DNA from: Lolium rigidum | Taxonomy: Eukaryota; Streptophyta; Magnoliopsida; Poales; Poaceae | Assembly (NCBI RefSeq): GCF_022539505.1 | Contig: NC_061510.1 | Span: 268,965,687-269,029,686, forward strand | DNA: 64,000 nucleotides | Direction of reading: 5' to 3' | Shown here: positions 1,538 through 59,908 of the stretch, piece by piece | How positions within the stretch are numbered: position 1 is the stretch's first letter | Layout of the letters: the number at the start of each line of letters is the position of its first letter | Made by a program: the position numbers and the translations under genes | Notes under the pieces: model-generated | The model's database searches: none | Told to the model about the DNA's origin: nothing | The model's input: only the letters and a program-made list of their open reading frames with translations

Positions 1538-3653
1538 TCAAGTAACATCGAGAGTAGAAGCATCAACATCATAACTTGTTCTAATAATAGAATCAAAAGG
1601 CAACTTCATTCTCTTTCTAGGGAAGTGTTCCATACCTTTCTTGAGAGAAAATTGATATTTAATATTACTTTCCCTCATATCAATAACAGCACCAACGGTT
1701 CGAAGAAAAGGTCTTCCCAACACAATAGGACAAGATGCATTGCATTCGATATCCAAAACAACAAAATCAACGGGGACAAGGTTATTGTTAACCGTAATGC
1801 GCACATTATCAATCCTCCCCAAAGGTTTCTTTTTAACATTATCGGCAAGATTAACATCCAAATAACAATTCTTCAATGGTGGCAAGTCAAGCATATCATA
1901 AATCTTTTTAGGCATAACAGAAATACTTGCACCAAGATCACATAAAGCATTACATTCAAGGTCATTGAATTTCATTTTAATGATGGGCTCCCAACCATCT
2001 TCTAACTTTCTAGGAATAGAAGTTTCAAGTTTTAGTTTCTCTTCTCTAGCTTTTATGAGAGCATTTGTAATATGTTTTGTAAAGGCTAAATTTATAGCAC
2101 TAGCATTAGGACTTTTAGCAAGTTTTTGTAAGAACTTTATAACTTCAGAGATGTGGCAATCATCAAAATCTAAATCATTATGAGCTACAGGAATGGGATC
2201 ATTGTTCCCAAGGTTGGAAAAAATTTCAGCAGTTTTATCACAAGCAGTTTCAGCAGTTTTAGCAATTTCAGGCAGTTTTGTACGCTTTGCACTAGGAGTA
2301 GAAACATTGACAACACCAATTATCTTACCATTGATAGTAGGAGGTGCAGCAACATGTGAATCATTATCATTACTAATGGTGGTGATAGTCCAAACTTTAG
2401 CTACATTATTCTCTTTAGCTAGTTTTTCATTTTCTTCTCTATCCCACCTAGCACGCAATTCAGCCATTAATCTTATATTCTCATTAATTCTAACTTGGAT
2501 GGAATTTGCTGTAGTAGTAATCTTATTATCAATATCATTATTAGGCATAACTTTAAATTTTAAAAGATTTACGTCAGAGGCAAGTCTATCAACTCTAGAA
2601 GCAATAATATCAATTTTATCAAGCTTTTCCTCAACAGATTTGTTAAAAGCAGTTTGTGTACTAATAAATTCTTTAAGCATAGATTCAAGACCAGAGGGTA
2701 CACTCCTATTATTGTTGTAAGAATTCCCATAAGAATTACCATAACCATTACCATTAGCAGAAGGATATGGCCTATAGTTATTACCAGAGTTGTTCCTATA
2801 AGCATTGTTGTTGAAATTATTATTTTTAATGAAATTCACATCAACATTTTCTTCTTGAGCAACCAATGAAGCTAAAGGAACATTATTTGGATCAACATTA
2901 GATCTACCATTCACAAGCATAGACATAATCACATCAATCTTATCACTCAAGGAAGAGGTTTCTTCAACAGAATTTACCTTCTTACCTTGTGGAGCTCTTT
3001 CCGTGTGCCATTCAGAGTAATTTATCATCATATCATCAAGAAGTTTTGTAGCCGACCCCAAAGTGATGGACATAAAGGTACCTCCAGCAGCTGAATCCAA
3101 TAAATTCCGCGAAGAAAAATTTAGTCCTGCATAGAAGGTTTGGATGATCATCCAAGTAGTCGATCCATGGGTTGGGCAATTCTTTACCAAAGTTTTCATT
3201 CTCTCCCATGCTTGAGCAACATGTTCGAGTATCTAATTGTTTAAAATTCATTATGCTACTTCTCAAAGATATAATTTTAGCGGGAGGATAATATCTACCA
3301 ATAAAAGCATCCTTACATTTAGTCCATGAATCAATACTATTCTTAGGCAAAGATAGCAACCAATCTTTAGCTCTTCCTCTTAATGAGAAAGGAAACACTT
3401 TCAATTTAATAATATCACCATCTACATCCTTATACTTTTGCATTTCACAAAGTTCAACAAAATTATTAAGATGGGCAGCAGCATCATCGAACTAACACCG
3501 GAAAATTGATCTCTCATAACCAGGTTCGAGTAAAGCAGGTTTAATTTCAAAGAATTCTGCTGTAGTAGCAGGTGGAGCAATAGGTGTGCATAGGAAATCA
3601 TTATTATTTGCGTTTGTGAAGTCACACAACTTAGTGTTTTCAGGGGTATTCAT
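1538..3653 (-). pseudogene. D gag-protease polyprotein, frameshifted
   Basis: Structural protein plus aspartic protease of a Gypsy element. It starts at ATG 3653 (MNTPENTK). The capsid-type retrotransposon gag domain (FSLRGRAKDWLLSLP) is followed by an Asn/Tyr-rich linker (NNNAYRNNSG), a coiled stretch and a retropepsin-like domain with the active-site motif DLGASISVMP and the flap/helix motif CPIVLGRPFL. It ends at 1538 (STLDVT). No zinc knuckle is visible. Two single-base shifts interrupt the frame, at 3488-3489 (CAG in B reads as CG here) and 3226-3229 (CAG reads as CGAG), both at CHG sites and so possibly sequencing artefacts. The last 553 codons (3199-1538) are open. B and C carry homologous copies. 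Confidence 0.85.
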
Positions 3654-3877
3654 TTTAGCAACAGTAAATAAAACAAACTAGATAAAGTAAATGCAAGTAA
3701 CTAATTTTTTTGTGTTTTTGATATGTAGAGCAAGACAGTAAATAAAGTAAAACTAGCAACTAATTTTTTTGTGTTTTGTTTAGGTGCAGCAAACAAAGTA
3801 GTAAATAAAATAAAGCAAGACAAAAACAAAGTAAAGAGATTGAGAAGTGGAGACTCCCCTTGCAGCGTGTCTTGATC

Positions 3878-3895
3878 TCCCCGGCAACGGCGCCA
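3878..3895 (-). promoter_or_regulatory. D primer-binding site, tRNA-Asp
   Basis: On the minus strand TGGCGCCGTTGCCGGGGA is complementary to the 3' end of plant tRNA-Asp(GTC), including CCA. It lies 11 bases inside the LTR end, as in A, B and C. Confidence 0.9.
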
Positions 3896-3906
3896 GAAAA
3901 CAGGCT

Positions 3907-5505
3907 TGATGCACGTAAATGTACACGTCCGTTGGGAACCCCAAGAGGAAGGTATGATGCGCACAGTGGCAAGTTTTCCATCAGAAAGAAACCAAGGTTT
4001 AATCGAACCAGGAGGAGCCAAGAAGCACGTTGAAGGTTGATGGTGGCGAAATGTGATGCGGCGCAACAACAGGGATTCCGGAGCCAACGTGGAACCTGCA
4101 CAACACAACCCAAGTACTTTGCCCCAACGAAACAGTGAGGTTGTCAATCTCACCGGCTTGCTGTAACAAAGGATTAACCGTATTGTGTGGAAGATGATTG
4201 TTTGCAAGAAAACAGTAAAAACAAGTATTGCGGTAGATTGTATGCTATGTAAAGAATAGGACCGGGGTCCACAGTTCACTAGAGGTGTCTCTCCCATAAG
4301 ATAAAAGCATGTTGGGTGAACAAATTACAGTCGGGCAATTGACAAATAGAGAGGGGCATAACAATGCATATTCATGATATGATAAATATAGTGAGATTTA
4401 ATCCGGGCATTACGACAAAGTACATAGACCGCCATCCAACTACATCTATGCCTAAAAAGTCCACCTTCAGGTTATCATCCGAACCCCATTCAGTATTAAG
4501 TTGCAAAGCAACATACAATTGCATTAAGTATGGTGCGTAATGTAATCGACAACTACATCCTTAGACATAGAATCAATGTTTTATCCCTAGTGGCAACAGC
4601 ACATCACAACCTTAGAACTTTCTCGTCACTGTCCCGGTGTCAATGAAGGCATGAACCCACTATCGAGCATAAATACTCCCTCTTGGAGTTAAGAGTAAAA
4701 ACTTGGCCAGAGCCTCTACTAATAACGGAGAGCATGCAAGATCATAAACAACACATAAACAATAGATTGATAATCACCATAACATAGTATTCTCTCGTCC
4801 ATCGGATCCCGACAAACACAACATATAGTATTACGGATAGATGATCTTGATCATGTTAGGCAGCTCACAAGATCCAACAATGAAGCACAATTAGGAGAAG
4901 ACGACCATCTAGCTACTGCTATGGACCCATAGTCCAGGGGTGAACTACTCACTCATCACTCCGGAGGCGATCATGGCGATGAAGAGTCCTCCGGGAGATG
5001 AATCCCCTCTCCGGCAGGGTGCCGGAGGCGATCTCCTGAATCCCCCGAGATGGGATTCGCGGCGGCAGCGTCTCTGGAAGGTTTTCCGTATCGTGGCTCT
5101 CGGTACTGGGGGTTTCGCGACGGAGGCTATTTGTAGGCGGAAGGGCAGGTCAAGAGGCGGCACGAGGGGCCCAGATGACAGGCCGGCGCGGCCAGGGCCT
5201 GGGCCGCGCCGCCCTGTCATCTGGCCACCTCGTGGCCCCACTTCGACTCCCCTTCGGTCTTCTGGAAGCTTCGTGCAAAAATAGGACCCCGGGCGTTGAT
5301 TTCGTCCAATTCCGAGAATATTTCCTTACTAGGATTTACGAAACCAAAAACAGCGAAAACAACAGAATCGGCTCTTCGGCATCTTGTTAATAGGTTAGTT
5401 CCATGAAATGCGTAAATACGACATATAATGTGCATAAAACATGTAGATATCATCAATAAAGTAGCATGGAACATAAGAAATTATCGATACGTTGGAGACG
5501 TATCA
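3907..5505 (-). repeat. D 5' LTR (1599 bp)
   Basis: Ends are TGATACG...GCATCA read on the minus strand, so the termini form a short TGAT/ATCA inverted repeat. Homologous full copies lie at 40514-42090 (C), 46079-47668 (A) and 58310-59908 (B), with partial ones at 51290-52801 and 52902-53368. The U3 part near 5130-5260 is GC-rich and palindromic. Confidence 0.9.
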
Positions 5506-5558: not shown

Positions 5559-8500
5559 TGTCAACACCCGGGTTTTTAAGTCCGGATGCCCTATTATATC
5601 ATACATCGCAATCCCAGGAAGATTGTTTTTGCGAGACATAATAGTAAGTCGTTCAGAGTCATCATTTATTACAACACATAAGGTCTTACAACAAGGGATC
5701 ACATGATCCAATATTACACGAATAGATTGTTCAACATCACACATAAGTAGCGGAAGCGTAGTAGTAGTGGACTCTATATTCCACAGGCAACGCTTGACGT
5801 TAGAAGACGATCCTAGTTATCGTAGACGTCCCGCTGTCCGTCATCCCGATCATCGTTGCTCCTCTTCATAGTCTGGCATTTGAATAGCCAGGGCAAAGCC
5901 ATGAGTACTTTTAAAGTACTCGCAAACTAATACTATGGTAAAGCATATTAAGTATAGTAAAGGGGTACTAAGCTCTAGGTTTATTTGCATAAAGCCAAGT
6001 TTTCCTTTGATAAACATTTACTAAAATCCTCATTATTCAATAGACTAACTCAAGTGGGAACATTAGTGTCATTCCCACAATTCATTTGGGATCCAAATCA
6101 ATTCCCAATCACCATCATTATTTCAACATAATTTCTGATAAAGGAAGTAGTATGGCCTTTCCAACCGTCCGTAACCACGGACACGGCTATTCGAATAGGT
6201 TTAACACTCGCAGAGGTTGTACTCTTGTGCCACAACTTTTGATTACATCCGTCGAGGATAACCTCGAATCATCGTAACTCAGTACGCGGATCATCAACCA
6301 TAACCTTTCACTTATATGTCCTAGTATAGGCACCTCTCCCCATGAGCTTGGCCTCCCGGTGAGAACCAACTGTTAACCCGGGAACTGCACGGGGCTTGGG
6401 TCGTACATTCACCTCATATTCACATCATTTCTCACATACGGAGGCAGCCTCGGCGTAACCCCTATGATGCTTGTTTAGAGGGAACCCATACTAAAATACA
6501 CAAGTTTCTAGTTAAGCCCTACCCATAATCAGGTATTGTGGGGGTACTTGTATAATTGGAAAGGTATCGCATTCAAGACCATATCAGGTTTATATCAAAA
6601 ATCACTATCTTCTCTTGGTCATATTCACCTTCAAAGTTATTCCATGGAATGAACCATCATTCCAAGGTTTCAAAATTCATATCAAATCACTTGTTCCCAT
6701 CTAGAGTAGTCAATTTTAAATTGATTAGCAATAGCAACTATATGAGGGATGCTATCTAGTTTTGAGTGGTGTTCATCTAATCCAAGTATTGTTCTATTCT
6801 ATACAAAGTGAATCATAAATCAAAAAGTACTTTGAAATAAATAAGCCAAAGCAACATTAAGTAAAAACATGGGATATGTAATACATAAAAGTAAAGTGTG
6901 ATGATGCCTTTGCTCTAGTAGAGCTAAGCATTTGTATTTAGCAAGGGTTAGCTTGCCTTGAGCTGAGTAGTGATCAAAGTTCTCTTCCTCTTCTTGGGAG
7001 TAGGCCTCCTCCTCTTGATACTCCTCGTTACTAGCGTCTATATACGAATACGAGGTATAAATACTAAACCAAACTCACATGCTAAACTAAGAACACTCAA
7101 AGAGTTCACACTCTAATCCTATTATCAATCAAACATGGCATGGTGAGTTATTTGAGGAATTCTTATTTAGTAGAAAATAATTTCCTCTCATTATTCCTAT
7201 TTCTTATATTTGGATATGTAGTTTCTTAGAGAAATTCATTTCTTCTTATTACTTCATATTAAGATTTAATCTCTTCATATAATAATCAGGTATGAAATAT
7301 AGGTTGACCCAAGTCAACATTTCATATCTATTATATGTGAGTATGATTTAATTAAAGGGCTATATTACACATGTTATCATACTACTATTTTAAATGCATT
7401 AAAATCTCTAAGTAATAATTATCAGGAGTTCATTAGCCTAGGTCATTCCCCCTGGTTATATTACTTAGGATCAAGATTTAAATGAGAGAGTAGCTCTCAT
7501 ACTCTTTATTAAATTTGAATTCCAAGTTGAATTGTTCTAGAATTTACTACATAGCTATCTTATTTGATCTAGTCCATGATCATACAAATAACATGCCTAT
7601 ATTATTGCATAATCAATTAGAGGACATCATTTGTGATTTATTGGAATTGGAAACAATTCAAAATCATTTATAGATTATTTTTAATGATTATTTGAAGTTA
7701 GAAAAGGCTCTGCCTTGTTATTTTTGTCATTTAAAATTTATTACAAATTTGGATATGAGACCAGTGGCATTATCTAGATAATTTCATGAGCTTCCCAATG
7801 ATATAAAGTTTGCTAGATTTGGTTTGGCAGATTTCAAGCTATTCAATTTTTACTAAACCATCAGTAGCACAATTCATAATTAAGTTTAAACATTTATTTG
7901 AATCTTGGGATTGGGCGGGAACTCTACTGGGCCGAAACGGGGTTTAAAAACACTGCGCAGCCCAGCAAGCCGCGGGTGTGTCAACACCCGGGTTTTTAAG
8001 TCCGGATGCCCTATTATATCATACATCGCAATCCCAGGAAGATTGTTTTTGCGAGACATAATAGTAAGTCGTTCAGAGTCATCATTTATTACAACACATA
8101 AGGTCTTACATCAATGGATCACATGATCCAATATTACACAAATAGATTGTTCAACATCACACATAAGTAGCGGAAGCGTAGTAGTAGTGGACTCATAATT
8201 CCACAGGCAACGCTTGACGTTAGAAGACGATCCTAGTTATCGTAGACGTCCTGCTGTCCGTCATCCGGATACTGTTGCTCCTCTTCATAGTCTGGCATTT
8301 GAATAGCCAGGGCAAAGCCATGAGTACTTTTAAAGTACTCGCAAACTAATACTATGTTAAAGCATATTAAGTATAATAAAGGGGTACTAAGCTCTAAGTT
8401 TATTTGCATAAAGCCAAGTTTTCTTTGAATAAACATTTAACAAAATCCTCATTATTTAATGGACTAACTCAAGTGGGAACATTAGTGTCATTCCCACAAT

Positions 8501-11500: not shown

Positions 11501-14103
11501 AATTTTCAAATTTCGAAATTCTTTTTGGTGAATCTTTATGATGTAATTAATGTGAGGTTTTGGTGGTGGTGGCACTAAATTTGGAAAAGAATTGCAAAGT
11601 TTCAAATTGGAGGTGATCTAGTTTTTCTTCTCAGATCCTGTTTTGGCAAATAAATTCTGGTCAACCTAGTCAACTCTGGCCATGGTGGTCAACATGAAAA
11701 GTACTCACCTTGACATGGTCTTGGATGACATGGCTTTGGTTGACAAAGTTTAGTTTAGGTTTTAAGAAATACAGGGGTGCAAAGTGGGGAAGAAAATATT
11801 TTTCACCCAAGTGACCATTATCACATGTATGTTGAAATCTTTATTTTTCTTGATTTGATTCATGATCCAAAGATGCAATTGTGTTAGTTTATCATATTAA
11901 AGCATTTTAGAAGCAAGGAAGCAAGCAATTATGGCCTTAGTGAAGGATTTGCATTTTTGCATATGGTGTATGTGAGTGATTTTGGGTTTTTTCCTATTTT
12001 CTTGATTTCTCCTTAATTTAGGGTTTTGTGATCTTGATTAGGGTTCACATAGTAATAGATCAACAATGTTAACACTCATCATGGCAATTGCACAAAAGAA
12101 AATATTACTATATGCATGAATCTATATGTGGCACTATATGCATAGAAAAGTTTTTGTTTGTTGTAAATTTTGGGTAATTGAACTCTCACTTGCTTTATTA
12201 TTGTTGAAAACTTGGGATGTTACAGGGTGCGAGTGGGCTGCCTGACGAGGTGGGGGCCACCTGTCGGTGACAGTTTTAACAGCGAAACGGTATGATCGAT
12301 TTAGGCCGTTGGATTAGGAAGAAGATCGACGGCGCGTGAACGTCGTCGTCTCCGACGAGAGGCGAGCTTACTGGCGGCGAGCCTAGGGGGTCGGAGAGCA
12401 TACCCGGCCGATGCAGGACTCTGGCAGGGTGCTCGGAGAAGTGGTTGTCGACGAGGAACAGCCTGGTGCAGTGGCGGCGCTCGGGGAGGCTCCAATCGAA
12501 GCAGAGCTTCCGCGGGCTCCGGCGAACTCGAGCTCTCGATTCGAGCTCCTCCGACGGCTACGGGTGAAATTGATCTGGGGGTGTTGCTCAGTGAAGGGAG
12601 GGGAGTGTTTGGTGTGAAGAAATGAGGAGCCGATCGCCCCAATTTATAGTGTCGAGGGGTGGCCGTGGGGTGCTGTGGAGGAGCGGCCATGGCGCGGCTC
12701 CGGTGGTGCGCGAAAGGGCAAGGCGAGGACGGCATCGTGTAGGCGTCGTCCTAGCGATGCTCAACGGCTAGCTGGCGCAGAGATAGGGCTACGGAAACGC
12801 TCGAGTTCTTCCAGTGATCATTGCAGTACCCGCGGTACGTCGGCGACGAGGACGACGGTGACAAGGCCCTGGGCGGTGCTTGAGCATGTCTAGCGCGTAG
12901 AGGGCTTGGAGTAGATGCTCGACGCGGCGGTAGGGATGCAGGGCGAGGACGGCAGCGATCGAGTGCATGGCGTCCCGGCGCAGCAGTGCGCGCTCACCGC
13001 GTGCATGGGCGCGTGCTGGCATGGTTCTGGACACGGCCGTTCTGGGCAATGCCGTGCACTAGCGATCGATTGAGCGGTACTGGTTGAGTCCTTGTGATGC
13101 AGAGATGCTCGAGGACATGGAGATTCGACAAGGGAGAGGCCAGTGAGGGTTTTGGCCAAAGGTGGCCGGCATGGCCACAGCATGCCATAGTTTAGGGTTT
13201 TTCTCTCCCTCCTCTCACTTTAATCGACCAAGGCAGGTACTGGGAGGCTGCAAGGATCCTAGAACTAGCTAATGATCACAAGTTTAAAGTGGTTTAGGGA
13301 AGAATCCAGTGGACAATTGAGTGTAGCTCAATTTGGAAATGGTGCCTGCCAAGTGTTTGTTGAAATGGCCGCAAGAGAAATTTATTCAAATTTTGAAATT
13401 CTTTTTGGTGCATCTCTTTTATATAATTAGAGTGAAGTATTGATGGTGGTGGCACTCAATTTGGAATTGATTTGCTACTTTTCAAATTTGAGGTGATCTT
13501 GTTTTTATTCTCAGATCCTATTTTGTCAATTTAATTCTGGTCAACCTAGTCAACTTTAGGGAGGGTGGTCAACATGAAAAGTATTCACCTTGACATGGTC
13601 TTGGATGACATGGCTTTGGTTGACAAACTTTAGTTTAGGATTTGAGAAATACAGGGGTGTGAAGTGGTGAAGAAAATATTTTTAGCCCAAGTGACCATTA
13701 TCACATGTATGATGAATTCTTGATTTCTCTTGATTTGATTCATGATCCAATGATGCAATTGTGTTAGTTTATCATATTGAAGCATTTTAGAAGCAAGGGA
13801 GCAAGCAATTATGGCCTGGGTGAAGGATTTGCATTTTGGCATATGGTGTATGTGAGTGAATATGGGTTTTTCCCATTTTCTTTATTTCTCCTCCATTTAG
13901 GGTTTTGTGATCTTGATTAGGGTTCATATATCAATAGTTCAACATGCTAACACTCATCATGGCAATTGCACAAAGAAATATTACTTGCATGCATGAATCT
14001 ATATGTGGCACTATATGCATAGAAAAAGTTTTTGTTTATTGTAAATTTTGAGTAATAGAAACTCTCACTTGCTTTATTATTGTTGAAAACTTGGGATGTT
14101 ACA
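5559..14103 (-). repeat. E 3' LTR, split by a solo LTR
   Basis: The LTR begins TGTAACATCCC on the minus strand at 14103 and ends GTGTTGACA at 5559. Removing the solo LTR and one GGGTG copy leaves about 4294 bp, unusually long for an LTR. It matches the 5' LTR (32941-38361) closely along its length, and many of the differences I noticed fall on CAG/CTG sites. Apart from the solo LTR I see no gene in it; open frames in the GC-rich part (12301-13190) look incidental. Confidence 0.9.
7979..12224 (-). repeat. Solo LTR of the E family inside the E 3' LTR
   Basis: A full 4246-bp LTR with termini TGTAACATCCC (minus, 12224) and GTGTTGACA (7979) is flanked by perfect GGGTG duplications (7974-7978, 12225-12229). 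The uninterrupted 5' LTR of E has a single GGGTG at the same place. No internal region remains, so this is the product of LTR-LTR recombination of an older insertion. It differs more from the two E LTRs than they do from each other. A TATA-like TATAAATAG lies on the minus strand at 10771-10779. Confidence 0.95.
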
Positions 14104-14117
14104 AACCCTTCCCCCTT
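14104..14117 (-). promoter_or_regulatory. E polypurine tract
   Basis: On the minus strand AAGGGGGAAGGGTT directly abuts the 3' LTR start, the expected primer for plus-strand DNA synthesis. Confidence 0.85.
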
Positions 14118-14150
14118 ACAAAAGATCTCGTCCCGAGATCTGGAAGAAAA

Positions 14151-15926
14151 CTAGGTACTAAAGAGATTGGGGTATTCTGTCTTCATAAAGTCTTCTCTTT
14201 CCCAAGTGGCCTCTTCTTCGGTGTGGTTACTCCATTGGATCTTCAGAAACTTGATACTCCTGGTACGAGTGGTTCTGAATGCTTCCTCCAGAATGCGAAT
14301 AGGTACTTCGCGGTAGGTTAGATCTGAGTTGATATCCACAGTACGATGGTCGATGTTCTTGAACACCTCAGTCTTCTCAGGTACCTCTAAGCACTTCCGG
14401 AGTAACGAGATGTGAAACACATTGTGCACCGTTGACATTTCTTCTGGTAATTCCAGTTGATAGGACACTTCCCCTCGGCGACTCAGGACTTTGAAAGGTC
14501 CGACATAACGGGGTGCAAGCTTTCCTTTAAGCTGGAATCTCTGCATTCCTTTAAGGGGGGACACTTTGAGATACACGAAATCTCCGATCTCGAAGGTCAT
14601 CTCTCGGCGTCTCTTGTCGGCGTAGCTCTTCTGTCTGGATTGTGCGGTCTTGAGGTACTCGCGGATCTTGTGAACCTTCTCTTCAGCTTCCCGGAGAATA
14701 TCTGGTCCAAAGACTTGACTCTCTCCGACTTCCGACCAATTCAGAGGGGTACGACACTTCCTTCCATACAGGGCTTCAAAGGGGGCCATCTGCAAGCTGG
14801 CTTGATAGCTGTTGTTGTACGAGAATTCTGCGTACGGCAAGCAGTCTTCCCACTGGGATCCATATTCTAACACACATGCTCTCAGCATATCCTCTAGTAT
14901 CTGGTTGACTCGTTCAGTCTGTCCATCCGTCTGAGGGTGATAGGCTGTGCTGAAGTTCAGCCTAGTTCCGAGTCCTTCATGTACCTTCTGCCAAAATCTG
15001 GAGGTAAATTGGGATCCTCTATCGGATACTATTGACTTCGGGGTTCCGTGTAGGCTGACTATTCGTGAGATATACAACTCTGCAAGTCTCGGTCCTTGGT
15101 AGGTGGTCTTGACGGGGATGAAATGGGCGACTTTGGTCAATCTGTCGACCACTACCCAGATGGAATCATTTCCTTTACTTGATTTGGGCAATCCGGTGAT
15201 GAAGTCCATTCCTACCGAGTCCCACTTCCATTCGGGAATCTGCAGGGGCTGTAGCAGTCCTGCGGGTCGTTGATGTTCTGCCTTGACTCTCTGACAGATG
15301 TCACACTTGGCGATGTAACTCCCGATTTCTCGCTTCATCCCATGCCACCAGAACTGTTCCTTCAAGTCCTGGTACATCTTGGTACCTCCGGGGTGAATAG
15401 AATACAAGGTGTCATGGGCTTCCTTTAGAATCACTTGTTTTAACTCTGAATCTGACGGCACGCACAAGCGTCCGTTGTACCTAAGTACTCCTTCTTCATC
15501 AACAGTAAATCCCGGTGCCTTTCCTGCTGCTAGCTGGCTCTTAATCCCGTCAATGCTTGCATTGCTCTTCTGGGCTTCCTTGATTTGACTAATCAGGGTG
15601 GGTTGAAGTTCAATGCTGGCGAGAAATCCTTCACTCACTAGCTCCATTCTAAACTGTTCAAACTCTTGGTGAAGGCTAGGTTGTTCTTCGGCAATCATGG
15701 AGTTCAAATGACACGGCAGTCTACTCAAAGCATCTGCTACTACATTGGCCTTGCCTGGGTGATAGTGGATATCCATATCATAATCTTTGATTAACTCTAA
15801 CCATCTCCTTTGCCTCATGTTTAGTTCCTTCTGGGTGAAGATATACTTCAAACTCTTGTGATCCGAATAGATCTCGCATCGATTACCCATGAGGTAATGA
15901 CGCCAAACTTTCAAGGCTAACACTAC
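14151..15926 (-). CDS. E RNase H end, integrase and chromodomain
   Basis: C-terminal part of the E polyprotein, severed from its upstream half by F. Counting from the open frame that starts in the F LTR at 15956, the E-derived part begins at residue 11 with the end of RNase H ([12 protein letters not shown]). The integrase zinc site is H181, H188, C218, C221; the catalytic triad is D251 (MDFITGLP), D312 (SDRGSQF) and E348 (GQTERV). A C-terminal DNA-binding region (GPFKVL) is followed by a chromodomain at about 545-600 ([10 protein letters not shown]), which in chromoviruses directs integration to particular chromatin. This half is uninterrupted from the F junction to its stop at 14151. The codons VVLALK continue directly from LELAAVV at 28919-28945 once F is removed. 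Confidence 0.93.
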
Positions 15927-16311
15927 TGACATAGGCACCCCAAATGGGCCTGCCATAGATAGTACCCGGGATTTACTGAAGGTCCACTATCCGAAGAATA
16001 AGAAGATTTGGGAGCCCAAGATGTATTAAGGAAAGCTAGAGTTGTAATAGGAAGTATTATTTGTAATCTGGCGGGACGAGTTAGAAACCGTCCCGGACTC
16101 TGTAACTTGTACAATACGAAACCCTCGGCTTCACCTCCTATATAAGGGGGAGTCGAGGGACAAAGAAAGGATCGAATCGACTGTCAACATAACCCTAGTT
16201 TTCATAATCGCCGAGTACTTTTCGCCTAAACCTTCGAGATCTACTTGCCCTCTACTTCTAGCAAAACCCTAGTCTACAATCTGTAGGCATTGACAAGTTA
16301 ATCCTTTGTCA
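15927..16311 (+). repeat. F 5' LTR (385 bp)
   Basis: Starts TGACATAGG and ends CCTTTGTCA, a TGACA/TGTCA inverted terminal pair. A TATA box (TATATAAG) lies at 16139-16146. Confidence 0.93.
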
Positions 16312-16313
16312 AT

Positions 16314-16331
16314 TGGCGCCGTCCGTGGGAA
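16314..16331 (+). promoter_or_regulatory. F primer-binding site
   Basis: TGGCGCCGTCCGTGGGAA lies two bases inside the 5' LTR. Only the first eight bases match the tRNA-Asp 3' end; this form is typical of Tat elements, but I cannot assign the primer tRNA with certainty. Confidence 0.7.
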
Positions 16332-16357
16332 TTAGAGGCTGCAAGGATCTGATCTCG

Positions 16358-19300: not shown

Positions 19301-19517
19301 TAAATGCGACAAAGATTTTCATCGACTGTCAGAAACTTTCGGGATGCAAGCAGAATATGCGGCACCTAGGTTCACTGATTATGATGTGCTGCCAGAGGTA
19401 GGAAGACCTTCTAAGGAGCCAACTTTCAATATAAACAAAGATTCAAAAGAGGTACAGATTCACCCGACAGACCCAAAGAAAACGACGTCCATTGCCGCAA
19501 ACATGGATGTCGCATAG
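16358..19517 (+). pseudogene. F gag-protease polyprotein, frameshifted
   Basis: Structural protein and protease. The likely start is ATG 16358 (MARSKSSTSS); an earlier in-frame position would overlap the primer site. A Ser-rich acidic N-terminal part is followed by a basic coiled region, the frame beginning MSFMTIDERG at 17305, the gag core (FKLPENFKKFDG, then DSWETFEDIFVKNF), a basic RG-rich segment, a knuckle-like CQMHFYLDNN...GHLQKDC and a protease with FIDGDSS, where most relatives have DGGSS. Shifts occur near 17150-17210 and at about 17873, the latter compatible with loss of the G of a CTG. The frame ends at TAG 19515-19517, where relatives usually read through with CAG. Downstream of 17873 it is open for over 540 codons. 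Confidence 0.85.
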
Positions 19518-22500: not shown

Positions 22501-22737
22501 TCAGCAGGACCTGAAAAACTACCACAGTCGACGATTGCGGCCAAGATCCTTCCAAGTGGGTGACCTGGTTTTACGACTCAATCAAAAAAGCCATGAAAAA
22601 CTCGAGTCACCACTGGCTAGGACCATACATCGTCACGAAGTAATAGAAGGAGGAGCATACAGAATTAAAGACAAGAAGACGGGGATCGACGAGCCAAATC
22701 CCGGAATGTGGCACGGCTCGGGCGTTTCTACGCCTAG
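19518..22737 (+). pseudogene. F pol: reverse transcriptase, RNase H, second RNase H, integrase
   Basis: Enzyme part of F. Reverse transcriptase begins after the TAG at 19515 (palm motif YIDDVV at about 20105) and runs into RNase H. A second, archaeal-type RNase H follows (MNFDGSKRLEG, NNEAEYEALIHG, GDSQLV; 20966-21370). Integrase has a zinc site (H19, H25, C57, C60 of the frame starting at 21637) and the triad D89, D149, E185, then a C-terminal region ending at about 22737. The frame is broken at least seven times: 19768, 19931, 20064, 20081, 20299, 22403 and 22702. Each break is a CAG or CTG, judged from conserved family motifs, turned into CGAG or CG. Other sites are altered without a shift (20052) or with additional changes (22636). 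These may be base-calling errors rather than decay. Confidence 0.88.
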
Positions 22738-24266: not shown

Positions 24267-24455
24267 CTGGAAAATAAAATCTTCGGATCAATGACAGCAC
24301 CAAGAGGATTTTCATTACTTTTAAAAAGATTACACCATCATTACAAAAGAAGTTCTCTCAAGGGACTAGCAAGGTAATTGTCGCCAAGGCTAAAGTGACG
24401 ACAATAGCAAAAGAAGTAAAGAAAGCAAAAAATAGAAAAGACGAGAGGCATGCAA

Positions 24456-27177: not shown

Positions 27178-28534
27178 TGGCGCGGAGGAGCAGCTACGAA
27201 GCGAAGAGCTTGAGAAGATGAGGAGCGCAGAAAGAAAATTCGCGAGGGGAACGGAGGTGCGGGCGCAAGCGAAGGACCTGGACCGAGGTTGAAGAAAGGT
27301 TTATATAGGATTCGGGCGAAGCGAGTGCACCGTTGGATGAAGAAATCGTGTGGTGAAAAAGGATCTCGCAGGTACAAGGGTAAAAAGGTATTTTTACGAA
27401 GAAGGAATGGAACGAGGCGTTACCGTACGTGCGCCGAGAAAAGCGGAGGACGTGTGTCCCCCACTTGCACGACGTGTCAACGTGGTGAGAACAATGGACC
27501 CACAAGGCAGAAAAAATCCCAGTTATTGATAGAGATGAAGAGAATTTGACAAAGGAGAATATGTCGACAAGAAAAATAAAAAGAGAATGGCGACAGGGCA
27601 AATCATTTGAATACTCTTGGAGCCTTTGATCAAATACAAGTTTTTGCCCAAACGCTCGGGGGCTACTCTGGAAAAATAGAAAATTTCGAGTATGACAATA
27701 TAGCAATGGCGAGAGCCTATGATCAAATCCAAGAATTTGTTCATAGCCTCGGGGGCTACTCCCATCGGGAGCGCTGGTCGCGCACCCGATAAATACAAAA
27801 ATATCGAGAAGAGTTATAAATATAGCGGCAAAGGATATTAATCTGTGGAGCCTACACCCAAGCACAAGTTCTTGGCTGTAGCCTCGGGGGCTACTCCCAT
27901 CGGGAACGCTGTTCGCGTGCCCGATGAATTTTTCCAAAATAGAGAAACAGAAGTGAGTATATTTCGAGTTACATAGATAACTCTACATATACTCCCATCG
28001 GGAAGACAAAATAAAGTCATCAAATATGACTCGATAAAATGTGCTATTCCAAAGGCGAAAAGCACTCGACAATATATTCTCAGAACGCCAAAGTTGCGAT
28101 CAATTTCTGAATGCCGCAAATATGCGAAGGTAAGACCCCAGATCCGTTCTGCTGGGCGTGGCATCGCCAAAGACTGCGCTCGCTACTTTTATCCGTATCA
28201 ACGGATACGAAGAAAAATCCTAACGGACGCGTTAGGTACCCGATAAATTTGATCGGGACTCGACAGAATGGTAAGACCTTAAGCGGCACTCGTCGAAGTT
28301 TACACCGAGTATCCCGAGATCATGTCCGGGGACGTGATCTTGAAGTAGGTTTTTGCGGATTGCCACTAGAGCGAGTTAACTAGTACCCGATCCGTCGGAT
28401 GAACTAGCCCCAACTACCATTATCCCTGTACAATATAGAATTTTATGTGAAGGAGTATGAATAAAAGCTGCGGAACAAAAATAAACGGGAGAGATTTTCC
28501 CGACTCTACGATTCAAGCAAAATCTCGGGGCTAT
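27178..28534 (+). other. F 3' non-coding region with polypurine-like repeats
   Basis: It lies upstream of the antisense gene and ahead of the 3' LTR, so it would hold any antisense promoter. CTCGGGGGCTACT occurs three times (27656-27668, 27748-27760, 27883-27895) and the LTR-adjacent tract is TCTCGGGGCTA (28524-28533). The motif CCCATCGGGA also recurs (27761, 27896, 27991). I see no other gene. Confidence 0.65.
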
Positions 28535-28918
28535 CGACATAGGCACCCCAAATGGGCCTGCCATAGATAGTACCGGGATTTATCGAAGGCCCACTATCCG
28601 AAGAATAAGAAGATTCGGGAGCCCAAGATGTATTAAGGAAAGCTAGAGTTGTAATAGGAAGTATTATTTGTAATCTGGCGGGACGAGTTAGAAACCGTCC
28701 CGGACTCTGTAACTTGTACAATACGAAACCCTCGGCTTCACCTCCTATATAAGGGGGAGTCGAGGGACAAAGAAAGGATCGAATCGATCGTCAACATAAC
28801 CCTAGTTTTCATAATCGCCGAGTACTTTTCGCCTAAACCTTCGAGATCTACTTGCCCTCTACTTCTAGCAAAACCCTAGTCTACAATCTGTAGGCATTGA
28901 CAAGTTAATCCTTTGTCA
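28535..28918 (+). repeat. F 3' LTR (384 bp)
   Basis: Matches the 5' LTR except at a handful of positions. It starts CGACATAGG instead of TGACATAGG; the change reads as ..CTG.. to ..TCG.. across the boundary. TATA box at 28746-28753. It ends at 28918 before the ACTAC duplication. Confidence 0.92.
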
Positions 28919-29997
28919 ACTACGGCTGCTAGCTCTAAGTCATGGGTTGGATAGTTCTGTTCATGCTGCTTCAGTTGCCTTGACAGGTACGAGATCACTT
29001 TGCCTTCTTGCATCAACACACATCCAAGACCAATCTTGGAGGCATCACAATACACATCAAAGGGTTTGGTGATGTCTGGCATGATCAGTATTGGGGCTGA
29101 AGTCAGTCTGCTCTTGAGCTGTTGGAAGCTCTCTTCACACTTGTTCGTCCATTCGAATTTCTTGTCCTTTTTCAACAATTGGGTCATTGGTCTGGCTAGG
29201 CTTGAGAATCCTTCAACGAATCGGCGGTAATATCCTGCCAATCCGAGAAATGCACGGACCTCAGTCTGGGTGGTTGGGGCTTTCCATTCTGCCACAGTCT
29301 TTATCTTTGAGGGGTCAACGGAAATTCCTCCTGCGGACAAGATGTGTCCCAGGAATCCTACTTCCTTCAACCAGAACTCACACTTGCTGAACTTGGCGTA
29401 CAGCTGATGTTCCCGAAGAGTATCTAAGACCATTTCCAAATGCTGCTCATGTTCTTCTTCGGTTTTGGAGTAGATAAGGATGTCGTCGATGAAGACAACG
29501 ACGAACTTATCCAGGAAGTTCATGAAGATCTTATTCATGAGATTCATGAAGTAAGCGGGGGCATTGGTTAATCCAAAGGACATGACATTGTACTCATACA
29601 ATCCATATCTGGTGGTAAAGGCAGTTTTGGGGATGTCCGATGCACGGATCTTCAGCTGATGGTACCCTGTCCTAAGATCAATCTTAGAGAACACGGTGGC
29701 ACCGGTCAACTGGTCAAACAGGTCTTCTATTTTGGGCAGAGGATACTTGTTCTTGATGGTGACATCATTGAGCTTGCGGTAATCCGTACATAAACGAATC
29801 GTACCATCCTTCTTGTCCACAAACAAAACTGGTGATCTCCAGGGTGATGCACTTGGCCTAATCAAACCCTTGGCTAACATATCATCCAGTTGTTTCTTTA
29901 GTTCCACCAATTCTGTCGGGTTCATACTGTAAGCTCTCTGGGCTATGGGTCCTGTTCCGGGGATTAACTCGATGATAAACTCGATATCCCGATCCGG
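28919..29997 (-). CDS. E reverse transcriptase and RNase H (upstream half)
   Basis: Continuation of the E polyprotein after a frameshift near 29998; the first in-frame Met (29925) is not a true start. Counting from it: the reverse transcriptase thumb/palm entry [20 protein letters not shown] (51-70), first catalytic D83 ([10 protein letters not shown]), motif VVFIDDIL with the D147-D148 pair, then the connection and RNase H start ([13 protein letters not shown]). The E frame stops at LELAAVV where F is inserted; the last 13 residues of the open frame come from the F LTR. The missing RNase H end resumes at 15926. No other lesion is visible, so this half appears functional apart from the shift and the insertion. 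Confidence 0.92.
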
Positions 29998-46078: not shown

Positions 46079-47668
46079 TGATACGCGTAGATACACACGT
46101 CCGTTGGGAACCCCAAGTGGAAGGTATGATGCGTATAGAAGCAAGTTTCCCTCAGTATGAAACCAAGGTTTAATCGAACCAGTAGGAGCCAAGAAGCACG
46201 TTGAAGGTTGATGGTCGCGAAATGTGATGCGGCGCAACACCGGGATTTCGGCGCCAACGCGGAACCTCGCACAACACAACCCAAGTACTTTGTCCCAACG
46301 AAACGAGTGAGGTTGTCAATCTCACCGGCTTGCTGTAACAAAGGATTAAACGTATCGAGTGGAAGATGTTTGCAAAGAAAACAATAAACACAATTGCGGT
46401 AGATTGTATGCTATGTAAAGAATAGGACCGGGGTCCACAGTTCACTAGAGGTGTCTCTCCCATAAGATAAAAGCATGTTGGGTGAACAAATTACGGTCGG
46501 GCAATTGACAAATAGAGAAAGGCATAACAATGCATATACATGATATGATAAATATAGTGAGATTTAATTGGGCATTACGACAAAGTACATAGACCGCCAT
46601 CCAACTGCATCTATGCCTAAAAAGTCCACCTTCGAGGTTATCATCCGAACCCCCTCCGATATTAAGTTGCAAAGCAACGAGACAATTGCATTAAGTATGG
46701 TGCGTAATGTAATCAACAACTACATCCTTAGACATAGCATCAATGTTTTATCCCTAGTGGCAACAGCACATCCACAACCTTAGAACTTTCTCGTCACGTC
46801 CCGGATTCAATGGAGGCATGAACCCACTATCGAGCATAAATACTCCCTCTTGGAGTTAAGAGTAAAAACTTGGCCGAGCCTCTACTAATAACGGAGAGCA
46901 TGCAAGATCATAAACAACACATGAACAATAGATTGATAATCACCATAATCATAGTACTCTCTATCCATCGGATCCCGACAAACACAACATATAGTATTAC
47001 AGATAGATGATCTTGATCATGTTAGGCAGCTCACAAGATCCAACAATGAAGCACAACAAGGAGAAGACGACCATCTAGCTACTCGCTATGGACCCATGGT
47101 CCAGGGGTGAACTACTCACTCATCACTCCGGAGGCGACCATGGCGGTGTAGAGTCCTCCGGGAGATGAATCCCCTCTCCGGCAGGGTGCCGGAGGCGATC
47201 TCCAGAATCCCCGAGATGGGATTCGCGGCGGCGGCGTCTCCGTAAGGTTTTCCGTATCGTGGCTCTCGGTGCCGGGGGTTTCGCGACGAAAGCTTTAAGT
47301 AGGCGGAGGGTCAACGCGGGGGCCACACGAGGGGCCCAGGGGGTAGGTCGGCGCGGCCAGGGCCTGGGCCGCGCCGCCCTCCCCTGGCCGCCTCGTGGCC
47401 CCACTTCGTTAGGTCTTCGGTCTTCTGGAAGCTTCGTGCAAAAATAGGACCCTGGGCGAAAGTTTCGTCCAATTCCGAGAATATTTCTTTACTAGGATTT
47501 CTGAAACCAAAAACAGCGAGAAAACAGCAAGCGGCTCTTCGGCATCTTGTTAATAGGTTAGTTCCAGAAAATGCATAAATATGGCATATAATGTGCATAA
47601 AACATGTAGGTATCATCAATAAAGTAGCATGGAACATAAGAAATTATCGATACGTTGGAGACGTATCA
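46079..47668 (-). repeat. A 3' LTR (1590 bp)
   Basis: Termini TGATACG (minus, 47668) and CGCGTATCA (46079). Directly upstream on the minus strand is the polypurine tract AAGCTTGGGGATGT (47669-47682). Confidence 0.92.
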
Positions 47669-51289: not shown

Positions 51290-52801
51290 TGATGCGCGTA
51301 GATATACACGTCCGTTGGGAACCCCAAGTGGAAGGTATGATGCGTATAGAAGCAAGTTTCCCTCGGTATGAAACCAAGGTTTAATCGAACCGAGTAGGAG
51401 CCAAGAAGCACGTTGAAGGTTGATGGTCGCGAAATGTGATGCGGCGCAACACCGAGGATTTCGGCGCCAACGCGGAACCTGCACAACACAACCCAAGTAC
51501 TTTGTCCCAACGAAACAGTGAGGTTGTCAATCTCACCGGCTTGCTGTAACAAAGGATTAAACGTATCGAGTGGAAGATGTTTGCAAAGAAAACAGTAAAC
51601 ACAATTGCGGTAGATTGTATGCTATGTAAAGAATAGGACCGGGGTCCACAGTTCACTAGAGGTGTCTCTCCCATAAGATAAAAGCATGTTGGGTGAACAA
51701 ATTACGGTCGGGCAATTGACAAATAGAGAAAGGCATAACAATGCATATACATGATATGATAAATATAGTGAGATTTAATTGGGCATTACGACAAAGTACA
51801 TAGACCGCCATCCAAGCTGCATCTATGCCTAAAAGTCCACCTTCGGGTTATCATCCGAACCCCCTCCGGTATTAAGTTGCAAAGCAACGAGACAATTGCA
51901 TTAAGTATGGTGCGTAATGTAATCAACAACTACATCCTTAGACATAGCATCAATGTTTTATCCCTAGTGGCAACAGCACATCCACAACCTTAGAACTTTA
52001 CGTCACGTGTCCCGAGATGTCAATGGAGGCATGAACCCACTATCGAGCATAAATACTCCCTCTTGGAGTTAAGAGTAAAAACTTGGCCAGAGCCTCTACT
52101 AATAACGGAGAGCATGCAAGATCATAAACAACACATGAACAATAGATTGATAATCACCATAATCATAGTACTCTCTATCCATCGGATCCCGACAAACACA
52201 ACATATAGTATTACGAGATAGATGATCTTGATCATGTTAGGCAGCTCACAAGATCCAACAATGAAGCACAACAAGGAGAAGACGACCATCTAGCTACTTG
52301 CTATGGACCCATGGTCCGGGGGTGAACTACTCACTCATCACTCCGGAGGCGACCATGGCGGTGTAGAGTCCTCCGGGAGATGAATCCCCTCTCGGCGGGG
52401 TGCCGGAGGCGATCTCCGAGAATCCCCGAGATGGGATTCGCGGCGGCGTCTCTGTAAGGTTTTCCGTATCGTGGCTCTCGGTGCTGGGGGTTTCGCGACG
52501 GAAGCTTTAAGTAGGCGGAGGGTCAGCGCGGGGGCCACACGAGGGGCCCGGGGGTAGGTCGGCGCGGCCGGGGCCTGGGCCGCGCCGGCCTATCCCTCGG
52601 CCGCCTCGTGGCCCCACTTCGTTAGGCTCTTCGGTCTTCGGAAGCTTCGTGCAAAAATAGGACCCTGGGCGAAAGTTTCGTCCAATTCCGAGAATATTTC
52701 TTTACTAGGATTTCTGAAACCAAAAACAGCAGAAAACGACAAGCTGGCTCTTCGGCATCTTGTTAATAGGTTAGTTCCGAGAAAATGCATAAATATGGCA
52801 T
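51290..52801 (-). repeat. A 5' LTR, cut by the assembly gap
   Basis: Ends GCGCATCA on the minus strand at 51290. By comparison with the 3' LTR the first 81 bases are missing in the gap. Many differences from the 3' LTR are CAG/CGAG or CTG/TCG pairs. Confidence 0.9.
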
Positions 52802-52901
52802 NNNNNNNNNNNNNNNNNNNNNNNNNNNNNNNNNNNNNNNNNNNNNNNNNNNNNNNNNNNNNNNNNNNNNNNNNNNNNNNNNNNNNNNNNNNNNNNNNNN
52901 N
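52802..52901. other. Assembly gap (100 N)
   Basis: Exactly 100 N, a conventional placeholder for unknown length. It separates a minus-strand LTR (left) from a plus-strand LTR of the same family (right), an inverted repeat that assemblers often fail to cross. At least 81 bases of the A LTR and 1130 bases of the B LTR are missing here. Confidence 0.95.
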
Positions 52902-53368
52902 ATGTATATGCATTGTTATGCCCTTCTCTATTTGTCAATTGCCCGACTGTAATTTGTTCACCCAACATGCTTTTATCTTATGGGAGAGACACCTCTAGTG
53001 AACTGTGGACCCCGGTCCTATTCTTTACATCGCATACAATCTACTGCAATACTTGTTTTACTATTTTCTTGCAAACAATCATCTTCCACACAATACGGTT
53101 AATCCTTTGTTACAGCAAGCCGGTGAGATAGACAACCTCACTGTTTCGTTGGGGCAAATTACTTTGGTTTTGTTGTGCAGATTCCACGTTGGCGCTGGAA
53201 TCCCTGTTGTTGCGCCGCATCACATTTCGCCACCATCAACCTTCAACGTGCTTCTTGGCTCCTCCTGGTTCGATAAACCTTGGTTTCTTTCTGAGGGAAA
53301 ACTTGCTGCTATGCGCATCATACCTTCCTCTTGGGGTTCCCAACGAACGTGTGAGTTACACGCCATCA
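52902..53368 (+). repeat. B 5' LTR, last 467 bases
   Basis: Corresponds to 59440-59908 of the 3' LTR and ends ACACGCCATCA. Confidence 0.92.
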
Positions 53369-53379: not shown

Positions 53380-53397
53380 TGGCGCCGTTGCCGGGGA
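53380..53397 (+). promoter_or_regulatory. B primer-binding site, tRNA-Asp
   Basis: TGGCGCCGTTGCCGGGGA, 11 bases after the LTR end. Confidence 0.92.
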
Positions 53398-55734: not shown

Positions 55735-58309
55735 TTTGCACTTTCTGCGCCTAGCTGAAAGGCGTTAAAGAAAAGCGCTTATGGGAGACAACCCATGTTT
55801 TTACTACAGTACTTTGTTTTATATTTGAGTCTTGGAAGTTGTTTACTACTGTAGCAATCTCTCCTTATCATGTTTTTGTGCCAAGTAAAGTTTCTATGTT
55901 AAAGTTGATGTTATATTTGGGATCGCTGCGCAGAAACAACATTGCTGTCTGTCACGAATCTGGGCACAAGTCTCTGTAGAAAATTCGAAAAAATCTGCCA
56001 ATTTACGAGCGTGATCCTCAGATATGTACGCAACTTTCATTATTTTTGAGTTTTTCCATTTGAGCAAGTCTGGTGCCATTTTAAAATTCTTCTTTACGGA
56101 CTGTTCTGTTTTTGACAGATTCTGCCTTTTATTTCGCATTGCCTCTTTTGCTATATTGGATGAATTTCTTTGATCCATTAATGTCCAGTAGCTTTATGCA
56201 ATGTCCAGAAGTGAAAAGAATGTTTTTGTCACCTCTGAATGTGTGAATTATTAATTGTGCACTAACCCTCTAATGAGTTTGCTTGAAGTTTGGTGTGAAG
56301 GAAGTTTTCAAGGGTCAAAAGAGGAGTATGATATACTATGATCAAGAGGAGTGAAAGCTCTAAGCTTGGGGATGCCCCCGTGGTTCATCCCTGCATATTT
56401 TAAGAACACTCAAGCGTCTAAGCTTGGGGATGCCCAAGGCATCCCCTTCTTCATCGACAACATCATCAGGTTCCTCCCCTAAAACTATATTTTTATTCAA
56501 TCACATCTTGTGTTCTTTACTTGGAGCGTCGATTTGTTTTTGTTTTTGTTTTTTTTTTGAATAAAATGGATCCTAGCATTCACTTTGTGGGAGAGAGACA
56601 CGCTCCGCTATTGCATATGGACAAATATGTCCTTAGGCTTTACTCATAATATTCATGGCGAAGTTTCTTCTTCGTTAAATTGTTATATGGTTGGAATTGG
56701 AAAATGCTACATGTAGTAATTCTAAAATGTCTTGGATAATGTGATACTTGGCAATTGTTGTGCTCATGTTTAAGCTCTTGCATCATATGCTTTGCACCCA
56801 TTAATGAAGAAATACATAGAGCTTGCTAAAATTTGATTTGCATATTTGGTCTCTCTAAGGTCTAGATAATATCTAGTATTGAGTTTTGAACAACAAGGAA
56901 GACTCGTGTAGAGTCTTATAATGTTTACAATATGTCTTTTATGTGAGTTTTGCTGCACCGGTTCATCCTTGAGTTTGCTTCAAATAACCTTGCTAGCCTA
57001 AACCTTGTATCGAGAGGGAATACTTCTCATGCATCCGAAATCCTTGAGCCAACTACTATGCCATTTGTGTCCACTATACCTACCTACTACATGGTATTTC
57101 TCCGCCATTCCAAAGTAAATTGCTTGAGTGCTACCTTTAAAATTCCATCATTCACCTTTGCAATATATAGCTCATCGGACAAAATAGCCTTAAAAACTAT
57201 CGTAGTATCGAATATGTACTTATGCACTTTATCTTTTATTAAGTTGCTTGTTGTGCGATAACCATGCTTCTGGGGAACGCCATCAACTATTGTTGAACAT
57301 CATGTGAGTTGCTATGCATGTCCGTCTTGTCTGAAGGATCTATCACCTTAATGATTGGAGCATGCAAATTGTTAGAGAAGAACATTGGGCCGCTAACTAA
57401 AGCCATGAATCATGGTTGAAGTTTCAGTTTTGGACATATATCCTCAATCTCATATGAAAATAATAATTGTTGCTACATGCTTATGCATTTAAGAGGAGTC
57501 CATTATCTGTTGTCCATGTTGTCCCGGTATGGATGTCTAAGTTGAGAATAATCAAAAGCGAGAAATCCAAAATGCGAGCTTTCTCCTTAGACCTTTGTAC
57601 AGGCGGCATGGAGGTACCCCTTTGTGACACTTGGTTGAAACATGGCATGCAAAGATCCGGTAGTCCAAGCTAAGTAGGACAAGGTGCGGGCACTATTAGT
57701 ACACTATGCATGAGGCTTGCAACTTGTAAGATATATTTTACATAACTCATATGCTTAATTTATTACTACCGTTGACAAAATTGTTTCATGTTTTCAAAAT
57801 AAAAGCTCTAGCACAAATACAGCAATCGATGCTTTCCTCTTTGAAGGACCATTCTTTTACTTTTATTGTTGAGTCAGTTTACCTATCTCCCTCCACCTTA
57901 AGAAGCAAACACTTGTGTGAACTGTGCATTGATTCCTACATACTTGCATATTGCACTTGTTATATTACTTTATGTTGACAATATCCATGAGATATACATG
58001 TTATAAGTTGAAAGCAACCGCTGAAACTTAATCTTCCTTTGTGTTGCTTCAACACCTTTACTTTGATTTATTGCTTTATGAGTTAACTCTTATGCAAGAC
58101 TTATTGATGCTTGTCTTGAAGTACTATTCATGAAAAGTCTTTGCTTTATGATTCAGTTGTTTACTCATGTCATTACCATTGTTTTGATCGCTGCATTCAT
58201 TACATATGTTTACAATATGATCAAGTTTATGACGGCATGTCACTTCAGAAATTATCTTTGTTATCGTTTTTACCTCGCTCGGGACGAGCGTAACTAACCT
58301 TGGGGATGC
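55735..58309 (+). other. B 3' internal non-coding region
   Basis: About 2.6 kb without a recognised gene. It holds the 94-codon opposite-strand frame (56178-55894, minus), two AAGCTTGGGGATGCC motifs (56362, 56420), the hairpin (56426-56446), the 103-codon frame (56950-57261, plus) and, next to the LTR, the polypurine tract CTTGGGGATGC (58299-58309). Confidence 0.7.
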
Positions 58310-59908
58310 TGATACGTCTCCGACGTATCGATAATTTCTTATGTTCCATGCCACATTATTGATGATATCTACATGTTTTATGCACACTTTATGTCATATT
58401 CGTGCATTTTCCGGAACTAACCTATTAACAAGATGCCGAAGTGCCGGTTCTCGTTTTCTGCTGTTTTTGGTTTCAGAAATCCTAGTAACGAAATATTCTC
58501 GGAATTGGACGAAATCAACGCCCACGTTCCTATTTTGCCCGGAAGCATCCAGAACACCCGAGAACCGCCAGAGGGAAGCCCTGGGGGCCCCACACACCAC
58601 CCTGACGCGGCCAGAGGGGGGGCCGCGCCGCCTTACTGTGTGGGCCCACCAGGCCCCCTCCGAGGATGCCCTTTCGCCTATATAAGGTCCCTGACCTAAA
58701 AACCCCAATACCGAGAGCCACGATACGGAAAACCTTCCAGAGACGCCGCCGCCGCGAATCCCATCTCGGGGGATTCAGGAGATCGCCTCCGGCACCCTGC
58801 CGGAGAGGGGATTCATCTCCCGGAGGACTCTTCATCGCCATGATCGCCTCCGGAGTGATGAGTGAGTAGTTCACCCCTGGACTATGGGTCCATAGCAGTA
58901 GCTAGATGGTCGTCTTCTCCTAATTGTGCTTCATTGTTGGATCTTGTGAGCTGCCTAACATGATCAAGATCATCTATCCGTAATACTATATGTTGTGTTT
59001 GTCGGGATCCGATGGATAGAGAATACTATGTTATGGTGATTATCAATCTATTGTTTATGTGTTGTTTATGATCTTGCATGCTCTCCGTTATTAGTAGAGG
59101 CTCCGGCCAAGTTTTTACTCTTAACTCCAAGAGGGAGTATTTATGCTCGATAGTGGGTTCATGCCTTCATTGACACCTGGGACAAGGTGATGAAAGTTCT
59201 AAGGTTGTGATGTCTGTTGCCACTAGGGATAAAACATTGATTCTATGTCTAAGGATGTAGTTGTCGATTACATTACGCACCATACTTAATGCAATTGTCT
59301 CGTTGCTTTGCAACTTAATACCGAATGGGGTTCGGATGATAACCTCGAAGGTGGACTTTTTAGGCATAGATGCAGTTGGATGGCGGTCTATGTACTTTGT
59401 CGTAATGCCCGGATTAAATCTCACTATATTTATCATATCATGTATATGCATTGTTATGCCCTTCTCTATTTGTCAATTGCCCGACTGTAATTTGTTCACC
59501 CAACATGCTTTTATCTTATGGGAGAGACACCTCTAGTGAACTGTGGACCCCGGTCCTATTCTTTACATCGCATACAATCTACTCGCAATACTTGTTTTAC
59601 TATTTTCTTGCAAACAATCATCTTCCACACAATACGGTTAATCCTTTGTTACAGCAAGCCGGTGAGATTGACAACCTCACTCGTTTCGTTGGGGCAAAGT
59701 ACTTTGGTTTTGTTGTGCGGATTCCACGTTGGCGCCGGAATCCCCGTTGTTGCGCCGCATCACATTTCGCCACCATCAACCTTCAACGTGCTTCTTGGCT
59801 CCTCCTGGTTCGATAAACCTTGGTTTCTTTCTAAGGGAAAACTTGCTGCTGTGCGCATCATACCTTCCTCTTGGGGTTCCCAACGAACGTGTGAGTTACA
59901 CGCCATCA
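58310..59908 (+). repeat. B 3' LTR (1599 bp)
   Basis: Begins TGATACGTCTCC and ends ACACGCCATCA. A TATA box TATATAAG at 58679-58686 follows a GC-rich U3. This LTR is the most canonical copy in the window. Confidence 0.93.

Follow-up and report, generated by a model that had tools for sequence, protein, structure and literature searches.

CAG/CTG-class differences between repeat copies of a Lolium rigidum assembly as probable nanopore consensus errors at presumably methylated CWG sites

In K. pneumoniae assembled from nanopore reads with default models, approximately 70% of the consensus errors were located at Dcm sites (CCAGG/CCTGG), and these errors almost disappeared after training on methylated DNA (PMC6591954, Wick et al. 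2019, in the part of the article available to us). For plants, reduced nanopore accuracy on native DNA has been reported (PMC7501810), and a plant-specific sup model exists, being named in PMC13232507, both sources having been available in excerpt. A CWG-to-CG error spectrum in a plant assembly was not found described in our partial survey of the open-licence literature. The Lolium rigidum assembly (2.44 Gb, N50 of 361.79 Mb, 7 scaffolds and 1,757 contigs) was built from nanopore R9.4.1 reads called with Guppy 5.1 (dna_r9.4.1_450bps_sup.cfg) and was polished three times with Racon and three times with Polca, according to the accessible portion of PMC9664059. Herein, we analyzed a stretch of 64,000 nucleotides of ryegrass DNA (the window), which we infer to belong to this assembly and thus to have been called with a generic, non-plant sup model.

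Differences between repeat copies in the window

The original prediction held that CAG alternates with CGAG, CGG or CG, and CTG with CTCG, TCG, CCG or CG, at homologous positions of the repeats inside the window. All nine site pairs cited for it were present to within 1-2 bases when the sequence was re-read, and a tenth pair, in the E repeat (6525/33907), added at re-reading, was likewise present within 1-2 bases. The CAG/CTG-class difference signature is confirmed as real, and it was also found outside the window. Seven alignments within the window (at least 96% identity over at least 300 bases) were then itemised difference by difference, alignment ends being left out. A difference block was assigned to the CAG class when it was a swap among CAG, CGAG, CGG, CGA and CG, scored on the strand on which the site reads CAG. 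The repeats and stretches concerned are as follows.

1..3150, + strand: non-LTR stretch with copies near 54100-57281 (other strand) and elsewhere; low strict rate (4/157 CAG cells)
3226..5505, + strand: start of the span of the original prediction; CGAG versus CAG at 3227/54049 and 3528/53748
3907-5505, within the preceding stretch: A-type LTR copy, 92% to the A LTR
5559..7315, + strand: E repeat stretch; pairs with 32941-34697 at 99.0%; strict CAG events are few, with several CAG/CGG changes
12225..14122, + strand: E repeat stretch; pairs with 36480-38378 at 98.3%; single CTG/CTCG event (13348/37605)
15923..16312, + strand: F repeat, copy 1; CTG at 15926, 15976 and 16181
28531..28919, + strand: F repeat, copy 2; TCG at the corresponding places (swap form)
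46079..47668, + strand: 5' LTR of the A element; starts TGATACG and ends CGTATCA; dense CAG-class differences
51290..52801, + strand: 3' LTR of the A element; 3' end cut by a 100-N assembly gap
52902..53368, + strand: B repeat, copy 1; CTG at 53044 and 53141, CTGG at 53195
59440..59908, + strand: B repeat, copy 2; CTCG at 59582 and 59680, CCGG at 59735

The signature was densest in the LTR pair of the A element (46079-47587 versus 51290-52801), in which 25 of the 38 difference blocks, spread over 1.5 kb, fell into the class {CAG, CGAG, CGG, CGA, CG}. Among the 9 blocks of the B pair, CAG contributed two insertions and three A>G changes, and the 5 blocks of the F pair included two CAG swaps; the F site at 15926 lay too near the alignment end to enter the difference list and was confirmed by re-reading. 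The 43 blocks of the E repeats contained one insertion, one deletion and eight CAG/CGG changes at CAG; taken alone, these CAG/CGG cases could be ordinary transitions. An older pair (1-4375/57281-52902, 108 blocks) carried strict events at CAG (5), CAC (1) and CAT (1).

The derived forms CGA and TCG ranked beside CAG in the tabulation of the window pairs, the CGA count being equal to the CAG count in B, F and E and one above it in the pair 1-4375/57281-52902. We read this high ranking as the same CAG sites viewed from the error form. The claim that one-base insertions are restricted to CHG sites proved too strong, since the exact C[G]AG/CT[C]G form made up 31 of the 93 non-homopolymer one-base indels in all window alignments, which include redundant pairs. 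At least 20 further one-base indels, counted among the top 30 listed, were of the CAG/CG type, and other non-homopolymer indels were also present.

Two features of the window are recorded here in their own right. A run of 100 Ns (52802-52901), marking an assembly join, lies at the cut end of the A 3' LTR directly before the B repeat, and the order across it is a matter of scaffolding inference. The interval 16001-28000 is rich in CGA and TCG, with CGA at 1.1-1.3 of expectation and TCGA at 60-96 per 4 kb, on both strands, a composition unlike that of the rest of the window.

Sequence context and ancestry of the CAG-class differences

The dependence of the differences on sequence context was determined in 28 close copies of the A LTR. 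Of the 40 best places in the genome, 28 had been retrieved, 8 loci from the first genome search and 20 more copies; as the copies were chosen by likeness to the window, they represent one family. Two loci were excluded as duplicates of window copies (L001 and L008), and three divergent LTR copies with 85-92% identity (W_3907, W_58309 and W_40513) were kept out of both the A-LTR tables and the ancestry test described below. When differences were tabulated by trinucleotide context, as the original prediction had proposed, CAG ranked first of the 32 classes for length-changing differences (14.7%), the next class, which overlaps CAG, reaching 5.0%.

A G was inserted at CAG in 46 of 756 cells, versus 0/1792 at CAA, 0/1120 at CAC and 0/1792 at CAT (together 0/4704). 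Loss of the A (CAG>CG) was likewise observed in 46/756 cells, versus 0/2912 for CAC and CAT together. The A was read as G (CAG>CGG) in 110/756 cells, versus 11/4704 for CAA, CAC and CAT, and the order was swapped (CAG>CGA) in 14/756, versus 0/4704 for the same three triplets. Insertions, deletions and swaps thus accounted for 106 of the 756 CAG cells. Fisher's exact p values for these contrasts ranged from 9e-13 to 8e-84, with cells treated as independent although 27 sites in 28 copies are not. By our count on the table, at least two of the forms CGAG, CGG, CGA and CG occurred among the copies at 23 of the 27 CAG sites. CAG>CAA was found in 17 cells.

Although the original prediction spoke of CHG sites in general, this scope was too broad: the analogous C[G]CG insertion at CCG was absent from all 1456 cells of the 28 copies, and the other changes at CCG were nine cases of CCG>CG, a change in a C run, and one of CCG>CGG. 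The errors therefore kept to CWG, CCG being free of insertions, and the affected context is CWG (CAG/CTG) rather than all of CHG.

We also sampled 36 loci elsewhere in the genome, namely 16 chromosomal stretches at round coordinates and 20 stretches of unplaced contigs. Ten of them had an alignable partner, most of these ten being relatives of the window's own repeats. Strict events affected 27 of 404 CAG sites in these ten loci, versus 5 of 3674 CAA, CAC and CAT sites; the control triplets TAG, AAG and GAG gave 4/869, 6/1164 and 10/885, respectively. It might be argued that the signature reflects chance and ambiguous alignment, with striking cases picked out by eye, given that 62 of the 93 non-homopolymer indels in the window lack the exact C[G]AG form, even though at least 20 of them are CAG/CG. 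This is extremely improbable, because an unselected tabulation puts CAG first of all classes and the CAG excess is repeated in the sampled loci.

Some of the sampled loci showed features of their own. One locus from a stretch of the outside-LTR type (L048) had no strict events in 1512 bases. Another, on an unplaced contig (L052, C500), is organised as tandem repeats with an approximately 494-base period and 96.6% identity between shifted stretches, and it carries two CAH events beside one of the CAG class. A third, an unplaced contig with one tRNA-Asp (L051), was considered as organelle DNA, and this assignment was dropped; in our reading, the adjoining open frame resembles a piece of a LINE reverse transcriptase.

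An element inserts with two identical LTRs, so that its own LTRs are expected to show fewer inherited differences than LTRs taken from different elements. Four LTR pairs, taken as elements from their strand and their spacing of 5.1-5.3 kb, were compared with 374 other pairs. Ordinary differences behaved as expected, with a mean of 12.0 within elements and 31.0 between them, a drop to 39%. Strict CAG-class differences averaged 12.75 within elements versus 11.1 between, and CAG/CGG differences 7.5 versus 5.5. The CAG-class differences were thus as many within as between elements and were not inherited with the sequence; since they are not reduced within elements, they are errors, not inherited mutations, and they arise anew in every assembled copy. 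The CAG/CGG changes, transition-like in form, also behave as errors in the A-LTR family. Sequencing errors at CAG/CTG sites probably account for many of the differences among the ryegrass repeat copies.

In silenced plant repeats, deamination of 5-methylcytosine (5mC) turns CHG into TAG or CAA. Real variation, in which such deamination was joined in the plant by some further process inserting bases at CHG sites, would account for the transition-like form of some CAG/CGG (CTG/CCG) differences, such as those in E, for the presence of CAG>CAA, its expected product, and for the under-representation of CAG in the window (0.71 of expectation). Insertion, deletion and swap are not products of deamination, however, and deamination would leave C>T/G>A changes only, following ancestry. 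What was found instead were the 106 insertions, deletions and swaps, 110 CAG>CGG cells against 17 CAG>CAA cells, at least two error forms among the copies at most CAG sites, and CAG differences that were as numerous within elements as between them, the other differences having dropped. We therefore regard real variation as very unlikely, while the CAG>CAA cases may belong to deamination.

Cytosine methylation, base calling and regional rates

Silenced plant repeats normally carry 5mC at the cytosines of CAG and CTG, and the CWG sites in the LTRs of these retrotransposons would presumably do so too. Most of the 5mC known to the base-calling model was probably in CG, and the model may often call a methylated C that precedes A or T with a G after it. 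On the CAG strand, the predicted outputs of such a process would be CGAG (G added), CGG (A called as G), CGA (order swapped) and CG (A lost). Read-based polishing would retain the errors because they are systematic, and short-read polishing would clear them only where reads map cleanly, which may explain their persistence in young, high-copy LTRs.

The original prediction had attributed the signature to a base caller that knew 5mC only from CpG and wrote CG at methylated CAG. This attribution is partly supported, by the non-inherited nature of the errors and the CWG rule, as well as by the generic, non-plant nanopore model used for the assembly to which the window presumably belongs (PMC9664059) and the Dcm precedent (PMC6591954), each as far as the available text of the source goes. 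Considering the error spectrum observed here, its confinement to CWG and its independence of ancestry, together with the platform, model and polishing described in the same part of PMC9664059, we hold it highly probable that the CAG-class differences are R9.4.1 nanopore consensus errors caused by 5mC at CWG, not sequence evolution. Methylation of these sites would be the most likely explanation of the CAG/CTG miscalls.

The same spectrum would be expected if the R9.4.1 sup model, or the Racon and Polca steps, corrupted CAG/CTG independently of methylation. Within the A LTR (46079-47587 and its copies), the error depended on the next base, as in a k-mer effect: 9 of 182 CAGC cells were affected, versus 161 of 792 other CAG cells, with 16-25% error cells for CAGA, CAGG and CAGT. 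Yet every genome contains abundant unmethylated CAG/CTG. The default-model errors of K. pneumoniae, obtained with an older Guppy, were approximately 70% Dcm and then mostly homopolymers (PMC6591954, in the section available), and CAG rates like the present ones outside Dcm sites would have been conspicuous there. Polishing errors would be expected to hit any variable site; the length-changing events instead centre on CAG and on CGA, TCG and CGG. Judging from the known behaviour of nanopore consensus sequences on other genomes, an intrinsic miscall of CAG would be unlikely.

Miscalling at methylated CWG, our preferred explanation, does not by itself predict where the errors are dense. The strict CAG rate was 170/974 in the A LTR, 4/157 in 1-3150, 4/65 in 47.7-50.2 kb and 2/99 in the E element, counting only sites with three matching flanking bases and with the window copy in every A-LTR comparison, so that the A LTR and the other stretches differ three- to nine-fold. 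The outside-LTR stretches and the E element, with strict rates of 2-6% versus 17.5% in the A LTR, are probably methylated too, which counts against methylation alone as the cause. Since CHG methylation normally extends to the interior of silenced elements, the rate differences probably owe something to polishing success, copy similarity or local sequence; flanking G+C, assessed in small bins, was not supported as their cause. The scarcity of CAG-class differences in 1-3150 and 54100-57281, against their abundance in the A LTRs, could reflect methylation, copy similarity or polishing.

Given this regional spread and the dependence on the next base, the proposal that the errors serve as a crude map of CHG methylation was not borne out. 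In such a map, methylation would be confounded with sequence context and, probably, with how well the short reads had polished the sequence. Uncalibrated, the residual errors are not usable for it; the changes introduced by short-read polishing would serve better. Nor can errors be located where homologous copies are lacking, since the excess of CGAG k-mers is weak, at 1.18 in the window and 1.06 in the 16 sampled loci. A bolder reading is that the CG-creating errors of plant assemblies called with generic nanopore models preserve, site by site, a fossil trace of CWG methylation, readable from a finished FASTA file by way of LTR pairs, the three- to nine-fold rate differences between the A LTR and other stretches being partly real differences in methylation. 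We put this forward tentatively and think it rather doubtful; if it were true, neither raw signal nor bisulfite data would be needed.

LTR dating and comparison with described systems

The error class makes up approximately two thirds of the apparent LTR divergence of the young A element (25/38 blocks), and the CAG-class shares in the LTR pairs of three other elements were 19/30, 20/29 and 17/32; the L020/L014 pair (21/54 blocks) is not an element pair and was not counted as one. The divergence of the A pair was 2.5 blocks per 100 bases with the CAG class and 0.9 without it, which would shift the insertion date of the element up to approximately three-fold if all CAG-class blocks are errors. 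The age and the diversity of young mobile elements are then overstated. Assemblies of this kind would likewise give biased values for LTR insertion dates, CpG content, copy diversity and the number of frameshifts in transposons. Comparing CAG with CGAG, CGG, CGA and CG in LTR pairs provides a quick check on other plant genomes and can serve as a filter in dating.

Deamination of 5mC resembles the ryegrass signature, as interpreted here, in being tied to CHG methylation and to the depletion of CAG; it is heritable, consisting of C>T changes that follow ancestry, whereas the ryegrass signature consists of insertion, deletion and swap. The sources on reduced accuracy and base calling in plants (PMC7501810 and PMC13232507) differ from the present case in giving, in the excerpts consulted, no motif or error spectrum. 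The strand-specific R/Y ambiguities of bacterial assemblies are, as the ryegrass errors probably are, systematic miscalls beside a methylated base; the methylated base there is adenine and the errors are substitutions on the methylated strand, whereas in ryegrass the context is CWG and the errors include one-base insertions and deletions (PMC12016153, in the portion available).

The likeness to Dcm methylation in bacterial nanopore assemblies is closer in several respects, going by the accessible text of PMC6591954: with Dcm, native DNA was read by a model untrained on the mark, as is probable for ryegrass; the mark is 5mC followed by A/T and G (in CCWGG), as it presumably is in ryegrass; and the errors survived consensus. 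Training on methylated DNA removes the Dcm errors. The ryegrass case differs in its plant host, in the affected CAG/CTG standing outside a CC..GG frame and in errors that create CG. It differs also in that the ryegrass errors come to light only when repeat copies are compared, in a sequence already polished with short reads, and the likeness is drawn irrespective of the letters of the Dcm errors.
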